Shown here piece after piece: positions 71 through 9,577 of a stretch of DNA of 64,000 nt. The notes beneath the pieces are model-generated. The model searched no databases, was not told the DNA's origin, and saw only the letters and a list, made by a program, of their open reading frames with translations. This DNA is from Paeniglutamicibacter sulfureus (GTDB lineage: Bacteria > Actinomycetota > Actinomycetes > Actinomycetales > Micrococcaceae), in NCBI RefSeq assembly GCF_030512175.1, contig NZ_JAULBL010000002.1, forward strand, positions 1-64,000. Reading direction: 5' to 3'. The position numbers were made by a program, and so were the translations under genes. Each line of letters opens with the position of its first letter. Position 1 is the first letter of the stretch.

Positions 71-80
71 TGATATATCA
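71..80. promoter_or_regulatory. Perfect palindrome between divergent genes, candidate GntR operator
   Basis: TGATATATCA is a perfect 10-bp palindrome between the left-edge gene and the GntR gene. FCD-type GntR regulators often bind short palindromes of this kind near their own promoter. A GTTGCA half-site at 87-92 also resembles half of the operators at 1716, 3485 and 6320. Binding is inferred. Confidence 0.35.
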
Positions 81-198: not shown

Positions 199-870
199 AT
201 GAGTACTATCTCCGCAAGCCCGGAGGTGCTGGGCGAGCCCCTTTCCCTGGCCGAGCAGTCGTACCGCGATCTCCGGGATCGACTGATCATGCTCGACATC
301 CGTCCCGGGGAACCGATCAACGACGGCCAGCTGGCCCTTGAGCTGGGTGTGGGGCGAACCCCCGTGCGCGAGGCGCTCAAGCGGCTGGAGATCGACCACC
401 TGGTCGTCTCCTATCCGCGCCGCGGCACCTTTGCCACGATCGTTGACATCACGGAATTGGCTGACGTCTCCGAAATGCGCCGCTCGCTGGAACCCCTGGC
501 CGCCCGCAAAGCCGCGCTCGGTGCCTCGGGGTCCGACCGCGATGCCCTGCGCGCCCTGGCCCGCGACATCGAGCGGCTGGGGGAGAAAAGGGTCGACAAG
601 CGCGGGCTGATGCAATACGACCTCAGCGTCCACCGGCTGATCTACCGGGCGGCGGGAAACCCCCACCTCGAGGAGACGCTGATCCGCCTGGACAATCTGG
701 CCACGCGCATCTGGTGCCTGGTGCTGGACAAGGTCCCGTCCGTCGCCGGGCACATCGAGGAACACGTCGACCTGCTCGAGGCCATTGTTGCCGGCGAAGC
801 CGACAAGGCGGAGGCCATGGCGCTGGCGCACATCACCAGCTTCGAGCAGACGATCCGGGCGGTGCTCTAG
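199..870 (+). CDS. GntR-family transcriptional regulator, FCD subfamily
   Basis: A 223-residue DNA-binding regulator. The N-terminal winged helix (about residues 20-85) has the GntR pattern: SYRDLRDRLIMLDIRPGEPI, then GVGRTPVREALKRLE as the recognition region and a wing with PRRGTFA. The rest is a helical FCD ligand-binding domain (SEMRRSLEPLAA and later HIEEHVDLLEAI). The frame is open from 70, but the ATG at 199 has GAAGGAG at 184-190 and matches the usual family start, so it is preferred. Its ligand and targets are unknown. Its place beside the creatinine genes makes it one of two candidates, with the IclR regulator at 8334, for controlling them. Confidence 0.88.
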   Translation: MSTISASPEVLGEPLSLAEQSYRDLRDRLIMLDIRPGEPINDGQLALELGVGRTPVREALKRLEIDHLVVSYPRRGTFATIVDITELADVSEMRRSLEPLAARKAALGASGSDRDALRALARDIERLGEKRVDKRGLMQYDLSVHRLIYRAAGNPHLEETLIRLDNLATRIWCLVLDKVPSVAGHIEEHVDLLEAIVAGEADKAEAMALAHITSFEQTIRAVL

Positions 871-1201: not shown

Positions 1202-1682
1202 GGGCGCCTACCGAGCCGCAGTCCGGGTCGGCGCCAGTGAAGCAAAAAATCGGCTCGTAGCAGTTCTTGAGAACCAGCGGGCCCCCCGGCGGAGAGATTG
1301 GCCGTGGGGCGCCCACAATGTCGACTGCAGGCTCCGGTTGCCACGACTGTCCATTCCACGGGGTTCGCACAGGTGCCATGTCGCCAACAGTCCTAGTGCC
1401 TTCTCGATCTGTTTTTTGGAAGGCGTCGATGCGGAGGCCTGCGCCGAACGCTTGGCCCAGCCGTTCAAGAGGGGTTGAGCCCCCTTGGAATCTGCCCGTG
1501 GGATCCGGCACGCACCCCGGCCACTGATGCGTCTAGGAGGAGGCCAGCCCGTGAACTAGCAATTACCTCGGACTGCCCATGGGCAACGGCTCCGTGGCGT
1601 CCAGCGGAACAGGACCACGGGGTTTTCCGATCCTGGCCGCACGCCCGGTCGATAGCCGATTTGAGGGGTACCTAAAAAACAC
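1202..1682. other. Non-coding or decayed stretch upstream of the MFS gene
   Basis: No frame here looks like a maintained gene. The part up to about 1480 may hold frameshifted remains of the PucR remnant. The rest up to the promoter at 1683 shows no feature I can name. Confidence 0.4.
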
Positions 1683-1740
1683 TTGACAGTGACACGGGAC
1701 ACAAATAGGGTCAACGCAACAGTGTTGCATGCAATGCAAC
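1683..1740 (+). promoter_or_regulatory. Promoter and operator 1 of the creatinine regulon
   Basis: TTGACA at 1683-1688 is followed after 17 nt by TAGGGT at 1706-1711. Four nucleotides later comes GCAAC-AGT-GTTGC-ATGCA-ATGCAAC (1716-1740). The inner part can also be read as GTTGCA-N5-TGCAAC, a perfect inverted repeat. The same layout recurs at 3451-3509 and 6287-6344. The operator covers the expected transcription start, which fits repression. It drives the MFS gene at 1766. Confidence 0.75.
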
Positions 1741-1765
1741 TTCAAAAACTTTCTGGTGGTTACCC

Positions 1766-3142
1766 ATGATGCACCGCACCAACTCCGCGAACGGCCACGG
1801 CGCCCACTCGGTTTCTGCAACGAGCGCACAGGCCAATAACCTGGACATCGATCGCGGCCAGGGACCCGCAGGAGTCGACAAGAAGACGCGCACCAAGGTC
1901 GTGGCTGCCAGCTTTATCGGCAACTTCGTGGAGTGGTTCGATTACGCCGTCTACGGCTACTTGGCTGTGACCATTACGGCGGTCTTCTTTCCCGAGTCGG
2001 ACCCTGCGACAGGCTTGATGCTCACGTTCGCACTCTTCGCGATCTCATTCCTGGTTCGCCCGCTGGGCGGATTCGTCTGGGGGCACCTGGGCGACAAGAT
2101 CGGCAGACGTGAGGCACTCTCCTGGTCCATCCTGATCATGTCCGCGGCGACCTTCTGCATTGCATTGATCCCCTCCTACGACACCATCGGCATCTGGGCC
2201 CCGATCCTGTTGCTGATCATCCGCGTCGTACAGGGGTTCTCCGCCTCAGGCGAATACGCGGGGGCTTCGGCATTCCTGGTGGAATATGCTCCGGCCAACC
2301 GTCGCGGCCTCTACGCCGCCGTCGTTCCGGCCAGCACCGCCACCGGCCTGCTGCTCGGCTCGCTGCTGGCGGCGTTGCTCACGGGCCTGCTAGAACCCGA
2401 GCAAATGCAGTCCTGGGGCTGGCGTCTGCCATTCCTGCTGGCTGCACCAATGGGTCTGATTGGTCGATATATCCGGACCCGGCTCGAGGATTCACCGGTA
2501 TTCAAGGAACTGGCCAAGGAAGACAACGCGGACAATGCCCCGGTTAGCTCGCTGTTCAAGAACCACTGGCGTCAGCTCGTACAGGCCGTCGGTGCGGTGC
2601 TGCTCAATGCCGTGGGTTTCTACCTGATCCTCAGCTACATGCCCACACACCTTTCGCAAAACATCGGGCTCAGTGAAACCGCATCCTATGTAGCCACCAC
2701 CGTGGCGCTGACCACGTACATCGGCTTCATTTTCGTGGTGGGCATCCTCTCGGACAGATTCGGGCGCAAGAAGGTGTTGATGAGTGCGTCGATCCTCTTT
2801 GTGCTGTTGACGGTGCCGGCGTTCATGCTGTTGGAAACGGGCAACTTCCTCATCGTGGTTCTTGTGCAGATCTTGCTCGGCGCAATGCTTAGCCTCAACG
2901 ACGGAACGCTGCCCAGCTACCTTGCCGAGATGTTCCCCACCCGCGTCCGTTACTCCGGATTCGCGGTGAGCTTCAACCTGTCCAATGCGCTCTTCGGGGG
3001 CACCGCACCTTTCGTGGCAACCGTGCTGATTGCCAGCTCTGGCACCGATCTGGCCCCCGGTTGGTACCTCATGGGAGCGGCAATCATCTCTCTGGTGGCC
3101 GTGTCCTTCTCGGTTGAAACCAGTAAGAAGCCGCTGGCCTAG
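1766..3142 (+). CDS. MFS transporter, metabolite:H+ symporter (MHS) type
   Basis: A 458-residue inner-membrane proton symporter with 12 predicted membrane segments. MHS-type marks are visible: FIGNFVEWFDYAVYGYLA in segment 1, RPLGGFVWGHLGDKIGRR between segments 2 and 3, and RVVQGFSASGEYAGA in segment 4. The second MFS signature is SDRFGRKKVL. Length is normal for the family (430-470). Two ATGs stand together at 1766 and 1769, with only a weak GGTGG upstream. MHS carriers import organic acids, betaines and similar solutes. The shared operator with creatininase and creatinase suggests creatinine, creatine or a breakdown product, but the substrate is inferred from context only. Confidence 0.88.
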   Translation: MMHRTNSANGHGAHSVSATSAQANNLDIDRGQGPAGVDKKTRTKVVAASFIGNFVEWFDYAVYGYLAVTITAVFFPESDPATGLMLTFALFAISFLVRPLGGFVWGHLGDKIGRREALSWSILIMSAATFCIALIPSYDTIGIWAPILLLIIRVVQGFSASGEYAGASAFLVEYAPANRRGLYAAVVPASTATGLLLGSLLAALLTGLLEPEQMQSWGWRLPFLLAAPMGLIGRYIRTRLEDSPVFKELAKEDNADNAPVSSLFKNHWRQLVQAVGAVLLNAVGFYLILSYMPTHLSQNIGLSETASYVATTVALTTYIGFIFVVGILSDRFGRKKVLMSASILFVLLTVPAFMLLETGNFLIVVLVQILLGAMLSLNDGTLPSYLAEMFPTRVRYSGFAVSFNLSNALFGGTAPFVATVLIASSGTDLAPGWYLMGAAIISLVAVSFSVETSKKPLA

Positions 3143-3450
3143 CCAGTCGACGAGCATTTTCCTCACGCGCGAGGTGGGTCTCGATCAGGCCTGGGTTGCC
3201 GCATTGGCCAGTTGAATGCACCTCATAACCAGGCTCAAGACACTTATGCCCGGCGGGTACAGGCGCGGACAGGGGTGACGGGGATCAGCTCCCCGCGCCC
3301 ACCATGTATCAGGGCCGGAACTCCACTGCTGTGACCCTGGATCGAGGCAAATCGCTGTTCCGGTGGTCAATCGACAGTGGCGGCACCTCAGTCGACGTTA
3401 CGTCGATGTTTATGCCCGAGACTTACGCCTCTCATCCTGAGTAGCGAAGC
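3143..3450. other. Intergenic stretch with a possible terminator hairpin
   Basis: No gene is seen. GGCGCGG (3262-3268) pairs with CCGCGCC (3293-3299), with an inner CGGGG/CCCCG hairpin and no T-run. It could end the MFS transcript, although it lies 120 nt downstream of the stop codon. Confidence 0.3.
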
Positions 3451-3509
3451 TTGACTGTGAGCTGAACCACTGAAAGGATTCAATGCAACCATGTTGTGAT
3501 AGATGCAAC
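3451..3509 (+). promoter_or_regulatory. Promoter and operator 2 of the creatinine regulon
   Basis: TTGACT at 3451-3456 is followed after 17-18 nt by a weak -10 (AAGGAT or AGGATT, 3474-3480). Then comes GCAAC-CAT-GTTGT-GATAG-ATGCAAC at 3485-3509. It has the same order and spacing as sites 1 and 3, with one change in the second half-site (GTTGT). The weaker -10 could mean lower expression or a need for activation. It precedes creatininase and the BCCT carrier. Confidence 0.65.
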
Positions 3510-3592
3510 AAAAAGTTTCCATTCGCGGGACTCGTGACGTTCCGCCGAAGTCCCGACATTCCTCGTTCGCTGTGAATATATAGGAGACAACG

Positions 3593-4387
3593 ATGGCCTC
3601 AGTATTTCTTGAAGACCTTGACGCAGAAACCTACGCCGCCGTTGTGGCCCGGGAAGGATCGACCGTAATCATCCCCACCGGTGCCACGGAGCAACATGGC
3701 CCTCACATGCCGTTGGGCGTGGACGCCATGCTGTCGAAGGCAATTGCCGGGGTGGTCGCCGAAAAGACCGGCGCAGTGGTTGCCCCGGTATTCGCATACG
3801 GCTACAAATCCCAGCCGCGTTCGGGCGGTGGCAACCACCGGGTAGGTACCACCAGCCTCGGTGCCGCAGCATTGACCGGAATGGTGGATGATGTGGTTTC
3901 CTCGTTCCTGGCCCAAGGTTTCAATCATGTGGTCGTCCTTAATGGCCACTTCGAGAACTACCAGTTCATCTACGAGGGTCTGGACAACGCGGTTGCCCGC
4001 GCCCGCAAACATGGCACCGGATCGCGGGCATTGTTGCTTTCCTACTGGGACTTCGTGGACGAAACCACCTTGGAGAAGGTCTTCCCTGATGGCTTCCTCG
4101 GCTGGGACATCGAACACGGCGGGGTGCTGGAAACCTCCCTGATGCTCTTGCTTCACCCGGAAAAGGTGGATATGTCCCGCGTTGTGGACCACCCGCCGGC
4201 CAAACTTACCCCCTACGACATCTTCCCCGAGGACCCGGCGCGAACCCCGGACAGCGGCTGCCTTTCCAGCGCCAAGGGCGCGAGTGCCGAGCGTGGGCAA
4301 CTCTTGCTCGATGCGGTTGTCACGCAGATTGCAGACGCCCTCAAGGGCGAACTGTTGCTCGGGGACATTGCCCTGGAGGTGTCATAA
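3593..4387 (+). CDS. crnA: Creatininase (creatinine amidohydrolase)
   Basis: A 264-residue cytoplasmic metal-dependent amidohydrolase that interconverts creatinine and creatine (EC 3.5.2.10). The sequence closely follows the characterised Pseudomonas enzyme rather than the broader creatininase superfamily. Metal ligands are in place: Glu33 and His35 in TEQHG, Asp44 in GVDAM, and His119 and Glu121 in NGHFEN. YGYKSQPRSGGGNH and GWDIEHGGVLETS are also typical of true creatininase. An AGGAGA lies upstream of the ATG. The BCCT gene follows one base after the stop, so the two are translationally linked. The upstream operator is shared with creatinase. Confidence 0.93.
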   Translation: MASVFLEDLDAETYAAVVAREGSTVIIPTGATEQHGPHMPLGVDAMLSKAIAGVVAEKTGAVVAPVFAYGYKSQPRSGGGNHRVGTTSLGAAALTGMVDDVVSSFLAQGFNHVVVLNGHFENYQFIYEGLDNAVARARKHGTGSRALLLSYWDFVDETTLEKVFPDGFLGWDIEHGGVLETSLMLLLHPEKVDMSRVVDHPPAKLTPYDIFPEDPARTPDSGCLSSAKGASAERGQLLLDAVVTQIADALKGELLLGDIALEVS

Positions 4388-4388
4388 C

Positions 4389-6143
4389 ATGTCACTGGAC
4401 AAGACGAACCCGCATCCGGCTGCGAGTGCCGAAGGCGATAACGATCCCAAGTCCGCCACGCTGGTGGAGCTTCCCCGCTTCATGGGGCGGCACATCCCGC
4501 CCCTTGACAGGTTGCTGATCCGAGTCATTCCGCCAGTGCTCATCGTCGGGGTGATCATCTGGGTGCTGGCCAACCCCGTGGGCGCCGCGGCGGCGATCTC
4601 CGAAATGCGAACCTTCGTGACCGGCAAGTTCACCTGGCTGTTCATCCTGTATTCGGTCTTTACCGTGGTGGTGTGCATCTGGCTCGCCGTGAGCAAGGTG
4701 GGCAAGGTTCGACTGGGTGGACCCAATGCAAAGCCGCAGCATAGCAAGTTCGCGTGGTACTCGATGCTTTTCGCCTGTGGGCAAGGCATCGGGCTGATCT
4801 TCTGGTCGGTCGCCGAACCCATCATGCTGCGTGACGAGAACCCGGTCATCCCGGCCGGGCCCAGCGGCGGTGCCGAGGGCGCCATTGTGTGGACCTACTT
4901 CCACTGGGGCCTGACTGCCTGGGCCATGTATTGCGTGGTGGCGGTCTGTCTGGCCTACTCGCACCACAACCTGGGCAAGACACTGACCTTCCGAGAGGCA
5001 ACCGTCGATATCCTTCCGCGATGGTCGCGCCGTGGGGCCGGCGTCATTGTTGAACTGCTGGCCATCATAGCCACTGTGCTCGGTCTCGCCACGTCCTTCG
5101 GGTTCGCAGCCATGCAGTTCAGCTCTGGCATCACTTCCTTCACTGGCATTGCAGCCAGTCCGGTGATGTGGTTCATGGTCATCCTGATTTTCGCCGGTAT
5201 CACCTCGGTCTCGGCCATCGTGGGCATCAACAAGGGCATGGCCCGGATCAGTAGTGTGAACTCGATCCTCAGCATCGTGCTGGTGGTAGCCGTGCTGATC
5301 TTCGGCCCGACGCTGTTTATCATCTCCAATATGTCCCAAACTTTCGGCAGTTTCATGGCGAACTTCGTGGACATGAGCTTGTGGACGGACTCCGGTTTGG
5401 CGGCAACCACTCTCACGAGCTGGCAGGACAGTTGGAATGGCTGGTGGACGGTATTCATCTGGTGCTGGGTCATTGCCTTCTCACCCTTCGTTGCAGGCTT
5501 CATTGCCCGGATCTCCCGCGGGCGCACCATCCGTGAGTTTGTCCTGGGCGTGACCGTCATCCCGACCCTGATCGTCATGGTCTGGGTGGCAGTGATCGGT
5601 TCGGCCGCCATCTACTACGACGACAAGTCCGACCGCGCCATCAGTGCGGCAGTGGCGGCCGATACCTCTGCCGGCCTGTTCGCGATGCTCGACGCCGTTC
5701 CAGTGGTCGGCACCATCCTGCTGGTGGTTGCCACGATCCTGGTCGCCACCTACTACGTCACCTCGCTGGACTCTGGCATCTACGCGCTGAGCGAGTTTGT
5801 CTCGGCACCGCACAAGTCCGGACCCGTGTTCCGGGTGGTGCTGGTGCTGTCCGTGGGTACGGTCACCACGGTGTTGTTGACGTTGGGCGGAACTGCGGTG
5901 GTTGACACCGTTCAAACCGGTACCATCATCGGGGCATTCCCGTTCTCGTTTGTGATCCTTTTGATGATCGTGAACCTGATCCGAAGGCTGCTCAAGCGTG
6001 ACAAGGCAATTAGGCAGCTGGAAAAGTTCATCAACGACCCCGACCCTACACGGGTGTTCGTTCCCGATCCGAGGGAGGAGGGCGCGATCCGCAGGGTCGC
6101 CTCCGAGGTCGACGAGGGAACTGGACTGTCAGAGAAGAAGTGA
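4389..6143 (+). CDS. BCCT-family transporter, probable creatinine/creatine carrier
   Basis: A 584-residue inner-membrane carrier of the betaine/carnitine/choline family with 12 expected membrane segments. Family marks include GQGIGLIFWSVAEP, WTYFHWGLTAWAMY and ARISRGRTIREFVLG. The frame is open far upstream of 4389, but the ATG one base after the creatininase stop is the sensible start. In segment 4 the aromatic residues that cage betaine in BetP are kept (FHW, then W and Y). In segment 8 the usual WAWWISW is WCWVIAF, so the positions matching BetP Trp374 and Trp377 are Val361 and Phe364. A changed substrate pocket fits a guanidino compound instead of betaine; this is an inference supported by the operon. 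Confidence 0.87.
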   Translation: MSLDKTNPHPAASAEGDNDPKSATLVELPRFMGRHIPPLDRLLIRVIPPVLIVGVIIWVLANPVGAAAAISEMRTFVTGKFTWLFILYSVFTVVVCIWLAVSKVGKVRLGGPNAKPQHSKFAWYSMLFACGQGIGLIFWSVAEPIMLRDENPVIPAGPSGGAEGAIVWTYFHWGLTAWAMYCVVAVCLAYSHHNLGKTLTFREATVDILPRWSRRGAGVIVELLAIIATVLGLATSFGFAAMQFSSGITSFTGIAASPVMWFMVILIFAGITSVSAIVGINKGMARISSVNSILSIVLVVAVLIFGPTLFIISNMSQTFGSFMANFVDMSLWTDSGLAATTLTSWQDSWNGWWTVFIWCWVIAFSPFVAGFIARISRGRTIREFVLGVTVIPTLIVMVWVAVIGSAAIYYDDKSDRAISAAVAADTSAGLFAMLDAVPVVGTILLVVATILVATYYVTSLDSGIYALSEFVSAPHKSGPVFRVVLVLSVGTVTTVLLTLGGTAVVDTVQTGTIIGAFPFSFVILLMIVNLIRRLLKRDKAIRQLEKFINDPDPTRVFVPDPREEGAIRRVASEVDEGTGLSEKK

Positions 6144-6147
6144 TCGC

Positions 6148-6191
6148 GCGAAGGTCGTGGTGTCCGCAATGGCGGAGACCACGGCCTTCGC
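6148..6191 (+). terminator. Strong hairpin terminator after the BCCT gene
   Basis: The repeat forms a stem of about 20 bp around an AATG loop, with one wobble and one mismatch. Arms begin GCGAAGG at 6148 and end CCTTCGC at 6191. There is no T-run, as is common for actinobacterial hairpin terminators. It separates creatininase-BCCT from the creatinase promoter. Confidence 0.65.
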
Positions 6192-6286
6192 CATTGCTGC
6201 GCGGGAAAGCGCCCTTGAAGGTACCTGCAAAAAGGCCCGGTCGAGTCCCGCGAATTGGAAATCTTTCGACGTTAGCCGGAAAGCAC

Positions 6287-6344
6287 TTGACAGTGAGATA
6301 GAGCACACATAACCTGAGTGCAACGGCGTTGCAATGAATGCAAC
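6287..6344 (+). promoter_or_regulatory. Promoter and operator 3 of the creatinine regulon
   Basis: TTGACA at 6287-6292, 17 nt, then TAACCT at 6310-6315. After 4 nt comes GCAAC-GGC-GTTGC-AATGA-ATGCAAC (6320-6344). The 10-base run ACTTGACAGT and the exact 4-nt gap between -10 and operator match site 1. It drives creatinase. Confidence 0.75.
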
Positions 6345-6442
6345 AACCCGAACCTTTCTCCGGCGGTTCCCAAGAATCCACGCAATCCATTGGATTGGGC
6401 CGGTCTGCATTGCCACCTGATTACTTCTAAGGAGTCAATACC

Positions 6443-7699
6443 TTGACCACCACCGCTCACAGCGCCACCAACGTTTCAGACCTCGAGCGCCTCAAGACGC
6501 TGCACAACGGCACCAAGCAGCAGCTGACCTTCTCGGACGCAGAGTTCGAGCGCCGCCTGGCCGGCCTGCGCCGGATCATGGCCGCCAAGGAGCTCGACGC
6601 TGTCATCCTGACCAGCTACCACGGCATCAAGTACTACTCTGATTTCCTGTACACAACCTTCGGCCGCAATTACGCGCTGGTTGTCACCGCCGACAGCTCG
6701 ACCACCATCACCGCGAACATCGATGCCGGCATGCCATGGCGCACCAGCTACGGCGACAACATCGTCTACACAGACTGGAAGCGCGACAACTTCTACTTCG
6801 GTCTGCAGGAAGCCCTGAAGCGCAACGGCGTCAAGGCCTCGCGCATCGGCGTCGAAGACGACGCCCTTCCGTTGATGACCCGCCAGGCCATCGCGGCCAC
6901 CTTCGACGGAGCCACCCTGGTCGATGTCTCGCAGGATGCCATGCGCCAGCGCATGATCAAGTCCGCCGAGGAAATCGAGGTCATCAAGCACGGTGCACGC
7001 ATCGGCGACATCGGCGGCGAAGCCATCAAGGCCGCGATCCGCGAGGGCATCACCGAGTACGAGGTTGCACTGATCGGCACCGAGGCGATGGTGCACGAGA
7101 TCGCCAAGACCTTCCCGCACCGCGAAGTGCGCGACACCTGGGTATGGTTCCAGTCCGGCATCAACACCGACGGCGCCCACAACTGGGCCACTACCCGCAA
7201 GCTGGAGCGTGGGGACATCCTCTCGCTGAACTGCTTCCCGATGACCAGCGGCTACTACACCGCCTTGGAGCGCACCCTGTTCCTCGGCGAGCCGGACGAG
7301 CGCTCGCTGCAGGTATGGAATGCCAACGTCGAGGTGCACAAGCGCGGCCTGGAGCTGATCAAGCCCGGAGCGGTCTGCAAGGACATCGCCGCCGAGCTCA
7401 ACGAGATCTTCATTTCGCACAACCTGCTGCCGAACCGCACCTTCGGCTACGGCCACTCTTTCGGAGTGCTCTCGCACTACTACGGCCGCGAGGCCGGCCT
7501 GGAGCTGCGCGAGGACATCGACACGGTGCTGGAGCCGGGCATGGTTGTCTCGATGGAACCGATGGTCACCATTCTTGACGGCGAGCCGGGTGCCGGCGGC
7601 TACCGCGAGCACGACATCCTGGTCATCGGCGAGGACGGCGGCGTGGAGAACATCACCAAGTTCGGCTTCGGTCCGGACAACAACATCATCGGCGCCTAG
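6443..7699 (+). CDS. creA: Creatinase (creatine amidinohydrolase)
   Basis: A 418-residue cytoplasmic enzyme that hydrolyses creatine to sarcosine and urea (EC 3.5.3.3). It has the creatinase N-domain followed by the pita-bread fold of the M24 family. Diagnostic stretches are YHGIKYYSDFLY, GDNIVYTDWKRDNFY, WFQSGINTDGAHN, GYGHSFGV and MEPMV. His246 in GAHN matches the catalytic His232 of the Pseudomonas enzyme. Creatinase uses no metal, in contrast to M24 peptidases. The start is a TTG with AAGGAG at 6429-6434. Sarcosine oxidase and urease genes are not in this window, so the products must be processed elsewhere. Confidence 0.94.
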   Translation: MTTTAHSATNVSDLERLKTLHNGTKQQLTFSDAEFERRLAGLRRIMAAKELDAVILTSYHGIKYYSDFLYTTFGRNYALVVTADSSTTITANIDAGMPWRTSYGDNIVYTDWKRDNFYFGLQEALKRNGVKASRIGVEDDALPLMTRQAIAATFDGATLVDVSQDAMRQRMIKSAEEIEVIKHGARIGDIGGEAIKAAIREGITEYEVALIGTEAMVHEIAKTFPHREVRDTWVWFQSGINTDGAHNWATTRKLERGDILSLNCFPMTSGYYTALERTLFLGEPDERSLQVWNANVEVHKRGLELIKPGAVCKDIAAELNEIFISHNLLPNRTFGYGHSFGVLSHYYGREAGLELREDIDTVLEPGMVVSMEPMVTILDGEPGAGGYREHDILVIGEDGGVENITKFGFGPDNNIIGA

Positions 7700-7718
7700 G
7701 GCCAGCTGGCATGATGGT

Positions 7719-7754
7719 GGGCGGGTGGGGCGCATGCGTGCACTCCACCCGCCC
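7719..7754 (+). terminator. Hairpin terminator after creatinase
   Basis: GGGCGGGTGG (7719-7728) pairs perfectly with CCACCCGCCC (7745-7754). The loop itself holds GCGCATGCGTGC, which can extend the structure. No T-run follows. It lies 20 nt after the creatinase stop, so the deaminase downstream may have its own transcription or depend on read-through. Confidence 0.65.
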
Positions 7755-7805
7755 CCCGCATTTCACCCGAACGTCGCATCCCGACGAAGAATCGAGCCCC
7801 ACGCC

Positions 7806-8282
7806 ATGACACTGGATGACCACGACCGCGCCGGATACGCCATCGCCCTTGAACAGGCCCGCCTGGGTGCCAGCGAGGGAGGGGTGCCCATTGGCTCGAG
7901 CATCCTCGAGAACGGGGTGCTGCTGGGTGCCGGCCGCAACCGCCGCGTGCAAAACGGGGATCCGACGGCGCACGGGGAAATCGACGCGCTGCGCAACGCC
8001 GGGCGCCGTGCCTCCTACGCCGGAACCACGCTGTACTCCACGCTGGCGCCCTGCGCCATGTGCTCCGGATCGATCATCCTCTTCGGCATCCGGCGCGTGG
8101 TGGTCGGCGAGGAGAAGAACTTCCCCGGGGAACTCGAGCTGCTGCGGTCCCGCGGCGTGGAGGTCGTGGTCATCGACGACCCGAAGGCCACAGCACTGAT
8201 GGAGGACTTCGTCGCCGAACACCCGGGCCTCTGGAATGAGGACATCGGCGTCGACGAGGCCCCGCCGGCCCCGGCGCGGTAG
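7806..8282 (+). CDS. Nucleoside/cytosine deaminase-like enzyme, yeast FCY1 type
   Basis: A 158-residue zinc hydrolase of the CMP/dCMP deaminase fold. Zinc and catalytic motifs are HGE (in TAHGEIDAL) and PCAMC (in LAPCAMCSG). Beyond these it resembles the fungal cytosine deaminase FCY1 rather than bacterial CodA: EGGVPIGSSI at the front, VVGEEKNFPGE in the middle and NEDIGV at the end. FCY1 converts cytosine to uracil. In this setting it could instead deaminate a creatinine-related ring, since creatinine deaminases elsewhere are often cytosine deaminases, but nothing in the sequence proves that. The ATG at 7806 matches the family N-terminus; the open frame upstream overlaps creatinase and is ignored. 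Confidence 0.85.
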   Translation: MTLDDHDRAGYAIALEQARLGASEGGVPIGSSILENGVLLGAGRNRRVQNGDPTAHGEIDALRNAGRRASYAGTTLYSTLAPCAMCSGSIILFGIRRVVVGEEKNFPGELELLRSRGVEVVVIDDPKATALMEDFVAEHPGLWNEDIGVDEAPPAPAR

Positions 8283-8333
8283 CGTACAACTGTGAACGCA
8301 CCCACCAGCACCCCACCCACCGGAGGAATTCCC

Positions 8334-9128
8334 ATGGTTGCCCAAGCGGCCGAAACCACCACCGCGGAACCGCGCGGCGCCTCGGTCATTGTCAACGTCA
8401 TCGACGTGTTGCGGTGCTTCACCGTTGAGCACCCGGTGCTCGGCGTCACCGAAATCGCCGCGCAGGTGGGCCTGCACAAATCAAGCATCTCGCGGATCCT
8501 GGCCACGCTCGAACAGGAACGCATCGTGGCCCGCGACGAGGCCACCCGGAAGTACTCGCTAGGACTGGGGCTGATCGCCGTTGCCGGTCCGTTGCTGGCA
8601 AACCTCGACGTGCGCCGGGTGTCCTACCCCTTCCTGGCGGAACTGGCCCGGGACACCGGGGAAACCGCGGTGCTGACCATCTGGGACGGCATCGAATCCG
8701 TCTCGGTCGAGCAGATCCCCAGCCTCCACCAGGTCAAGCACACCTCGGCCATGGGCAGCCGCTACAACACCGCGCTCAGCGCCTCGGTGCAGGTCTTCCT
8801 GGCCCACGAGGACGCGGAACGCGCCGCGGCGCTGCTGGAAGCGGGGACCGTGGTGCTTCCGGAGAACACCGCCAGCACCCGCGCTGCCTACCTCAAGCGC
8901 CTGGAAGAGGTGCGGGTCCGGGGCTACGCGGCCAACTACGGGGAGACCTCCGGCGAGGAGGTCGGCGTGGCCGCGCCCATCTTCGACCACCGCGGCACGG
9001 TCGTGGCTTGTGCCTTGGTCGCCGCCCCGTACTACCGCGTCTCGCAGGAACAACTGGCCGCACTTGGCGCCGACTGCGTCCGTGCGGCGCGGCAAATCAG
9101 CATGCGCCTGGGCGCATCGCCGGCCTAG
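8334..9128 (+). CDS. IclR-family transcriptional regulator
   Basis: A 264-residue regulator. An N-terminal winged helix-turn-helix (about residues 15-75) contains GVTEIAAQVGLHKSSISRIL, typical of IclR proteins. A GAF-like effector domain follows, with SRYNTALSASVQVFLA and GEEVGVAAPIFDHRG. A GTG at 8292 is in frame, but the ATG at 8334 has GGAGGA 6 nt upstream and is chosen. The gene follows the deaminase by about 50 nt and precedes a cupin, so the three may be co-transcribed. IclR proteins usually sense small aromatic or carboxylic metabolites and control adjacent catabolic genes. It is a candidate reader of the three repeated operators upstream. Confidence 0.88.
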   Translation: MVAQAAETTTAEPRGASVIVNVIDVLRCFTVEHPVLGVTEIAAQVGLHKSSISRILATLEQERIVARDEATRKYSLGLGLIAVAGPLLANLDVRRVSYPFLAELARDTGETAVLTIWDGIESVSVEQIPSLHQVKHTSAMGSRYNTALSASVQVFLAHEDAERAAALLEAGTVVLPENTASTRAAYLKRLEEVRVRGYAANYGETSGEEVGVAAPIFDHRGTVVACALVAAPYYRVSQEQLAALGADCVRAARQISMRLGASPA

Positions 9129-9166: not shown

Positions 9167-9577
9167 ATGTTTGAACCACGTGGTGCACACACCTTTGACT
9201 ACGCCCTGCACGAGGGCACCGGCACCCGCATGCAATTCCATTTCGCCGACGAGATGCGCATGCCCGTCGCCATCCAGACCTGGGAACTCGAACCCGGCGG
9301 ACACGAGGGCATGCATGCCCACCACCGGGACGACATGGCCCTCGAGGAGTTTTACCTGGTGCTCGAGGGCACCGCGTCCATGCGCGTGGGCCAGGAGCAC
9401 CACGAGCTGAAGGCGGGGGACAGCGTCCTGGCCCCGGCCGGGGTGGAGCACGATCTGCGCAACACCGGGGACGGCACGCTGCGCGTCCTGGCGGTCTGGG
9501 GCGAGGAAGGGCACAAGGACTTCTCCGCCTTCGGGTCCCTCGCCGCGGCGCGGGAAGCCCGGGCCGGGAATGACTGA
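9167..9577 (+). CDS. Small single-domain cupin protein
   Basis: A 136-residue beta-barrel protein. Cupin motif 1 is visible as GMHAHHRDDMALEEFYLVLEG and motif 2 as GDSVLAPAGVEHDLRNTG, giving His and Glu metal ligands. The ATG at 9167 has AAGGGGG upstream; the earlier part of the open frame overlaps the IclR gene and is excluded. Stand-alone cupins of this size can be metal-dependent isomerases, dioxygenases or ligand sensors. Adjacency to the IclR regulator suggests a part in the same catabolic unit, but no reaction can be assigned. Confidence 0.8.
   Translation: MFEPRGAHTFDYALHEGTGTRMQFHFADEMRMPVAIQTWELEPGGHEGMHAHHRDDMALEEFYLVLEGTASMRVGQEHHELKAGDSVLAPAGVEHDLRNTGDGTLRVLAVWGEEGHKDFSAFGSLAAAREARAGND

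Follow-up and report, generated by a model that had tools for sequence, protein, structure and literature searches.

How bacteria of the Micrococcaceae control the breakdown of creatine and creatinine is a question raised by the first 64,000 nucleotides of contig NZ_JAULBL010000002.1 of Paeniglutamicibacter sulfureus (assembly GCF_030512175.1), the whole of which is referred to here as the window. Near its start lie three gene units, which consist of an MFS transporter gene, a creatininase-BCCT pair and a creatinase-TadA-like deaminase-IclR-cupin series (Table 1), and which we infer from gene order and strand to be single transcripts. The expected start of each unit is overlaid by the same three-box DNA element, with the expected +1 falling in box 1. 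We consider it highly probable that these three sites are operators of a repressor, the IclR-family protein encoded at 8334-9128 in the third unit, which would be released by a metabolite of the pathway.

The preliminary description of this DNA had given the pattern GCAAC-N3-GTTGY-N5-ATGCAAC for the three sites. It was recovered exactly at window positions 1716-1740, 3485-3509 and 6320-6344, and the full 26-base unit, TGCAAC-N3-GTTGCA-N5-TGCAAC, starts one base earlier in each case. Even with up to three mismatches, no further copy was detected in the window, compared to a mean of 0.38 and a maximum of two matches in shuffled windows, none of which reached three or more matches in 100 trials. 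Across the whole genome, the same three sites were the sole matches with zero or one mismatch, and allowing two to three mismatches yielded 14 further matches vs. 11 in the reversed control. The shared -35 context claimed for sites 1 and 3 was confirmed as well, with ACTTGACAGT plus several flanking bases common to both. The pair formed by boxes 2 and 3 (GTTGC-N7-GCAAC) is exact at sites 1 and 3 and carries one mismatch at site 2, but is not rare by itself, with seven window matches at up to one mismatch vs. 3.03 by chance. Because the pattern was read off these three sites themselves, its occurrence in relatives serves as the real test.

A test independent of the motif was obtained from 78 loci chosen by creatinase alignment alone from the best 80 matches among 311 creatinase relatives, with some organisms represented by two loci (L125/L174, L192/L195 and L193/L194; L and G numbers denote loci and genomes, respectively, and many genomes were counted as both). 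We counted 169 combinations of box spacings in 224 upstream regions, allowing up to one mismatch per box. Gaps of 3 and 5 bases yielded 87 matches, whereas the best of the other 168 combinations reached 7 and most of them none. At 90 of the 93 sites with zero or one mismatch, the next gene, located at a median distance of 56 bases downstream, coded for the MFS protein (47), creatinase (28), creatininase (9) or the BCCT transporter (6). The other three sites (L128, L148 and L187) had no listed same-strand gene within 600 bases; at L128, the tblastn match of the MFS runs over the operator site, and the other two are unexplained. No motif with these gaps was present in the same-strand upstream regions of the genes for IclR (70), GntR (36), the TadA-like deaminase (19), the cupin protein (20) or an FAD dehydrogenase (9). 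Both the conserved box spacing and the idea of a regulon defined by a shared operator, as put forward in the preliminary description, are strongly supported by this comparison.

The scan of related Micrococcaceae proposed there located exact copies of TGCAACNNNGTTGYNNNNNNTGCAAC in 12 of the 15 genus genomes and, for the family as a whole (genus included), in 103 of 395 genomes, representing 14 of 32 genera; the reversed control had no match in either set. As for the three genus genomes without an exact copy, G001 contains neither a creatininase match nor a creatinase orthologue, G005 has sites with one or two mismatches, and the contig of G012 ends 24 bases before creatinase. Among 53 exact sites in 40 family loci fetched for containing one, 52 precede pathway genes, namely those for MFS (32), creatinase (13), BCCT (5) and creatininase (2), and the remaining one, in L114, is a match of low complexity. 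Beyond the family, 183 genomes of the order were scanned, and four of them, which belong to a single genus in a second family, contain an exact site; in each case, the gene behind it is that for MFS or creatinase. We also derived a base profile from 92 non-redundant sites, which remained from 132 after removing 6 overlapping echoes and then near-copies. At least 1.3 bits were reached by 15 of the 18 box positions, and no position outside the 26-base unit exceeded 0.8 bits, the highest lying in the -35 element, although the conservation of the boxes is raised by the acceptance of sites with up to two mismatches. Inner bases T17 and A19 are preferred between boxes 2 and 3 and extend their palindrome.

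Some arrangements of additional operator copies were observed on the side. Two genus genomes (L127/L042 and L053) contain the MFS-creatinase pair twice in a row, with a separate operator for either pair. A second same-strand operator with up to two mismatches lies 141-154 bases from the first one before the MFS gene in 16 loci (L147, L151, L152, L153, L155, L156, L157, L160, L162, L170, L193, L194, L195, L198, L199 and L202), a distance that hardly varies, corresponds to some 13-15 helical turns and would be compatible with a repression loop. In the genome of P. sulfureus itself, a copy with two mismatches is present at G000:C9:485788-485812 (L046), and it was the one of the 14 weak genome matches to be examined. 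We did not find it convincing as part of a wider regulon, since the sole match in its neighbourhood, which was compared with nine window proteins only, was a distant MFS homologue of 36% identity about 1.6 kb further on.

The protein reading the three operators is very probably the IclR regulator, which belongs to this family by matches above the cut-offs to both the N-terminal HTH_IclR and the C-terminal IclR_C domain. Allowing up to two mismatches, the motif occurs in 70 of the 78 creatinase-anchored loci, 62 of which have the IclR gene in the locus. Written in the order motif/IclR/GntR, the 78 loci are distributed as +++ 31, ++- 31, +-- 7, +-+ 1, -++ 1, -+- 1, --+ 3 and --- 3. Seven of the eight motif loci without a local IclR gene come from genomes with an IclR match elsewhere (53-64% identity; the match at 64%, that of L189, is truncated at the edge of a contig). 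The remaining locus, L174, is a contig end from the organism of L125, which has IclR. Five creatinase genomes without an IclR match (E 1e-30) also have no motif at creatinase; they contain one match with one mismatch and four with two mismatches in total, none of them at creatinase, and are spread over four positions of the creatinase tree as drawn, where some forks are open or weak. The eight motif-less rows need seven changes on this tree, and two of them are second loci, L192 of an organism with IclR and motif at L195, and L136 of a genome with another locus containing the full IclR gene and exact sites, the IclR match of L136 spanning only about residues 11-107. Because IclR and motif are found together and are both absent at four positions of the tree, we regard IclR as the likely reader, its gene being linked to and co-inherited with the sites, with L166 as the one diverged case.

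Two further loci deserve mention here. The site with one mismatch in G397, a genome lacking this IclR, lies just before a gene that looks integrase-like by eye, and was judged to be due to chance or to belong to another regulator. The second creatinase cluster of Glutamicibacter creatinolyticus (L136, 13750-14028), with its partial IclR and no operator, is perhaps a natural deregulated copy.

The form of the operator has precedents. For IclR regulators from 32 orthologous groups, Suvorova and Gelfand (2021, PMC8222616) reported three-box sites of alternating direction in which GKTYCRYW3-4RYGRAMC is combined with TGRAACAN1-2TGTTYCA. The sites described here likewise consist of three half-sites of alternating direction, with an IclR gene linked to the regulated genes. 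The palindrome type most often published for IclR proteins is GTT-11-AAC, 17 nt overall, which is also the arrangement of boxes 2 and 3 here; boxes 1 and 2 form an inverted pair 3 nt apart, compared to 3-4 nt in the published second pair. The half-sites themselves differ, being TGCAAC/GTTGCA here and TGRAAC/GTTYCA in the publication (C for R and G for Y); thus, one base per half-site departs from published consensuses, which are family averages, and the rest agrees. The element most likely works like, and is, an IclR three-box operator, and the statement in the preliminary description that no operator of this form was known for this pathway needs correcting in that the geometry had already been published for IclR regulators. 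A palindrome with an external direct half-site is also described for PcaU, PobR and HmgR, and the third box is cited there as necessary for PcaU binding; these regulators differ by controlling aromatic catabolism and by another half-site sequence, and PcaU and PobR are activators (PMC8222616). The string "creatin" does not occur in the main text of that paper. Another regulator, SoxR of Arthrobacter sp. TE1826, resembles our case in adjoining genes for sarcosine oxidase, creatininase and creatinase in Arthrobacter, but is a LysR-family protein and a negative regulator of soxA (both as cited in PMC4941409). We found no report of this creatine/creatinine regulon in the literature searched, which largely excluded subscription papers.

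In the mechanism we propose, boxes 2 and 3 would act as one palindrome pair, with box 1 placed 3 nt upstream of box 2. In the absence of substrate, IclR, probably as two cooperating dimers, would cover about +1 to +25 and keep RNA polymerase from the promoters of the MFS, creatininase-BCCT and creatinase units, until a pathway metabolite, most likely creatine, releases it. The gene order suggests that IclR is transcribed together with creatinase, possibly from operator 3, which would also render the circuit self-limiting. Repression fits the position of the operators over +1. TTGAC is present 31-34 nt upstream of box 1 in all 25 genus sites examined, and the distance from the end of the -10 element to box 1 is 3-4 nt in the window and 2-5 nt in these 25 sites. 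At site 2, the -10 element may be read either as AAGGAT (3474-3479, spacer 17) or as AGGATT (3475-3480, spacer 18).

Several observations weigh against this interpretation, in addition to the deviating half-site bases and the selection of profile sites mentioned above. With up to one mismatch allowed per box, the motif was present in fewer than half of the 224 regions upstream of genes, partly because genes inside operons were counted. IclR is present in L166 together with only two diverged motif copies with three mismatches, and in L158, which belongs to the IclR-less group, only 96 bases of contig precede creatininase, so that its upstream region is seen in part. The -10 hexamers are weak, with three of six consensus matches at each window site, and none of the three promoters was picked up when 1500-8300 was scanned with a simple promoter search, the promoter and terminator scan yielding nothing above shuffles; the promoter claim therefore rests on conservation. 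IclR binding, its repressive effect, the role of creatine as effector, the joint transcription of IclR and creatinase and the arrangement of the dimers are all features that we infer from sequence, and the existence of IclR activators such as PcaU and PobR (PMC8222616) means that the sign of control is not fixed by the family.

We weighed several other explanations. That IclR binds the three boxes as an activator, or as a dual regulator needing its ligand to open the promoter, seems unlikely to us: PcaU and PobR, as activators with three-box sites (PMC8222616), and the weak -10 elements speak for it, but box 1 starts so close behind the -10 element, at the distances given above, that a bound protein would sit on the start site.

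We judge it very unlikely that the GntR/FCD protein (199-870) acts as a repressor through the three operators, with IclR having other targets. The preliminary description had named both proteins as candidates, and a GntR relative of at least 50% identity does occur in 36 of the 78 loci, with a match at E 1e-30 in 35 of 36 genomes searched, although some of these matches, at 52-58% identity, may be paralogues. However, GntR persists without motif and IclR in the locus in L154, L172 and L191, and in the genome in G395 and G396, while G436 (from L193) combines the exact motif with IclR and yet gave no match to GntR at E 1e-30. The operator thus does not follow GntR across genomes, being lost in five genomes which keep it, and the reverse applies to G436. 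In addition, GntR has its own conserved palindrome, TGATATATCA, which occurs in 34 of 43 GntR upstream regions, several of which represent one locus counted twice (34 of 42 is the fair figure, as L131 was wrongly cut and gave no match), and which is probably the GntR operator. GntR is indeed present in many genomes with the motif, and what counts against it are these exceptions together with the palindrome. On both grounds we rejected GntR as the reader of the three-box sites, and of the two earlier candidates only IclR is favoured by co-occurrence.

Still less probable is recognition of the motif by a global regulator of nitrogen metabolism, for example AmtR, which controls the creT-crnA genes for a creatine transporter and creatininase as a repressor in Corynebacterium glutamicum ATCC 14067 (PMC8864220). 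AmtR is a TetR-family protein that responds to nitrogen status rather than to the substrate, creatine raising creT-crnA transcripts only 1.5- to 3-fold in that strain, and binds a CTAT-N6-ATAG operator (PMC8864220), which is unlike the three-box motif. The window contains no exact match to this operator and four with one mismatch vs. 2.67 by chance; in the absence of an excess over chance, we set aside an AmtR-type site, and all genome copies of the three-box motif with zero or one mismatch belong to this pathway. Half of the four AmtR-like matches, at 3489-3502 and 3570-3583, lie around the creatininase promoter and overlap or follow the operator there. Finally, a reading of the sites as recent duplicates of one promoter segment without operator function, to which ACTTGACAGT and the flanking bases shared by sites 1 and 3 might point, can be practically dismissed, as it is contradicted by conserved boxes in less conserved surroundings and by the exact recurrence of the motif in 14 genera of the family and one of a second family.

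The signal recognised by the proposed IclR repressor was approached via gene content. Motif and IclR occur without creatininase in 28 loci, and all 16 genomes searched among them have no PF02633 match anywhere in the genome, 14 of these having the MFS gene in the locus; among the other loci, L195 belongs to an organism that does have a relative of creatininase at another locus (L192). Since the creatininase-less genomes could not process creatinine by this route (creatinine deaminase routes were not searched), creatine is more likely to be the signal. Hence, the creatinine/creatine regulon of the preliminary description stands as a regulon, but its conserved core looks like a creatine regulon, which is extended to creatinine in P. 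sulfureus. The nearest solved chain to IclR is PDB 3obf_A, which shares 170 of 172 residues with the IclR of L089, encoded in the order operator-MFS-creatinase-IclR in a cluster without creatininase. The entry is named "putative transcriptional regulator, IclR family" and its chain of 176 residues comprises the C-terminal domain alone; neither a ligand nor an organism or function is listed for it, and the literature searched contained no paper on 3OBF. On balance, we lean towards a creatine-responsive IclR repressor which is widespread in Micrococcaceae and binds its operator in two alternative dimer geometries, with 3OBF as the sensor domain of a relative and creatininase added by an operator copy in lineages such as Paeniglutamicibacter.

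As for the remaining genes (Table 1), the MFS protein is probably a creatine transporter: the creatine transporter CreT of C. glutamicum is described as an MFS protein (PMC8864220), a description that suggests a similar role here. The BCCT transporter gene is probably in one unit with creatininase, and the cupin gene is possibly the end of the creatinase operon. The position of the TadA-like deaminase gene is kept in most loci of the genus, with no obvious step in the pathway for its product, and in L041 the gene seems to be split between two frames.

Table 1. Genes, predicted promoters and candidate operators at the creatine/creatinine locus (window positions)
Feature	Position	Strand	Remarks
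TGATATATCA palindrome upstream of GntR gene	71-80		probable GntR operator; unlike three-box site
GntR/FCD regulator	199-870	+	candidate reader, disfavoured
MFS unit promoter	1683-1711	+	-35 TTGACA 1683-1688; weak -10 TAGGGT 1706-1711
three-box operator 1	1715-1740	+	CGCAAC-N3-GTTGCA-N5-TGCAAC (first base C instead of T)
MFS transporter (MHS/ProP-like)	1766-3142	+	domain match; next gene after 47/93 operators in relatives
creatininase unit promoter	3451-3480	+	-35 TTGACT 3451-3456; ambiguous -10
three-box operator 2	3484-3509	+	TGCAAC-N3-GTTGTG-N5-TGCAAC (box 2 = GTTGTG)
creatininase	3593-4387	+	TIGR04448 equivalog, 349.5 bits vs. cut-off 235
BCCT-family transporter	4389-6143	+	PF02028, 459 bits; 1 base past creatininase stop codon
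creatinase unit promoter	6287-6315	+	-35 TTGACA 6287-6292; weak -10 TAACCT 6310-6315
three-box operator 3	6319-6344	+	TGCAAC-N3-GTTGCA-N5-TGCAAC
creatinase (creatine amidinohydrolase)	6443-7699	+	Creatinase_N and Peptidase_M24; relatives 79-96% identical in 78 loci
TadA-like deaminase	7806-8282	+	PF00383; between creatinase and IclR
IclR-family regulator	8334-9128	+	HTH_IclR 48.4 bits (cut-off 22), IclR_C 106 bits (cut-off 24)
cupin protein	9167-9577	+	domain match

Enzymes of creatine and creatinine breakdown are used in clinical creatinine assays (PMC7568399), and the protein described here is a candidate creatine-sensing transcription factor for biosensors. The comparison also suggests a function for the orphan crystal structure 3OBF, and the sites offer a natural operator series for testing the idea of alternative dimerisation proposed for IclR regulators. 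For the organism and its relatives, it gives the breakdown of creatine and creatinine a named, testable regulator together with its candidate operator.
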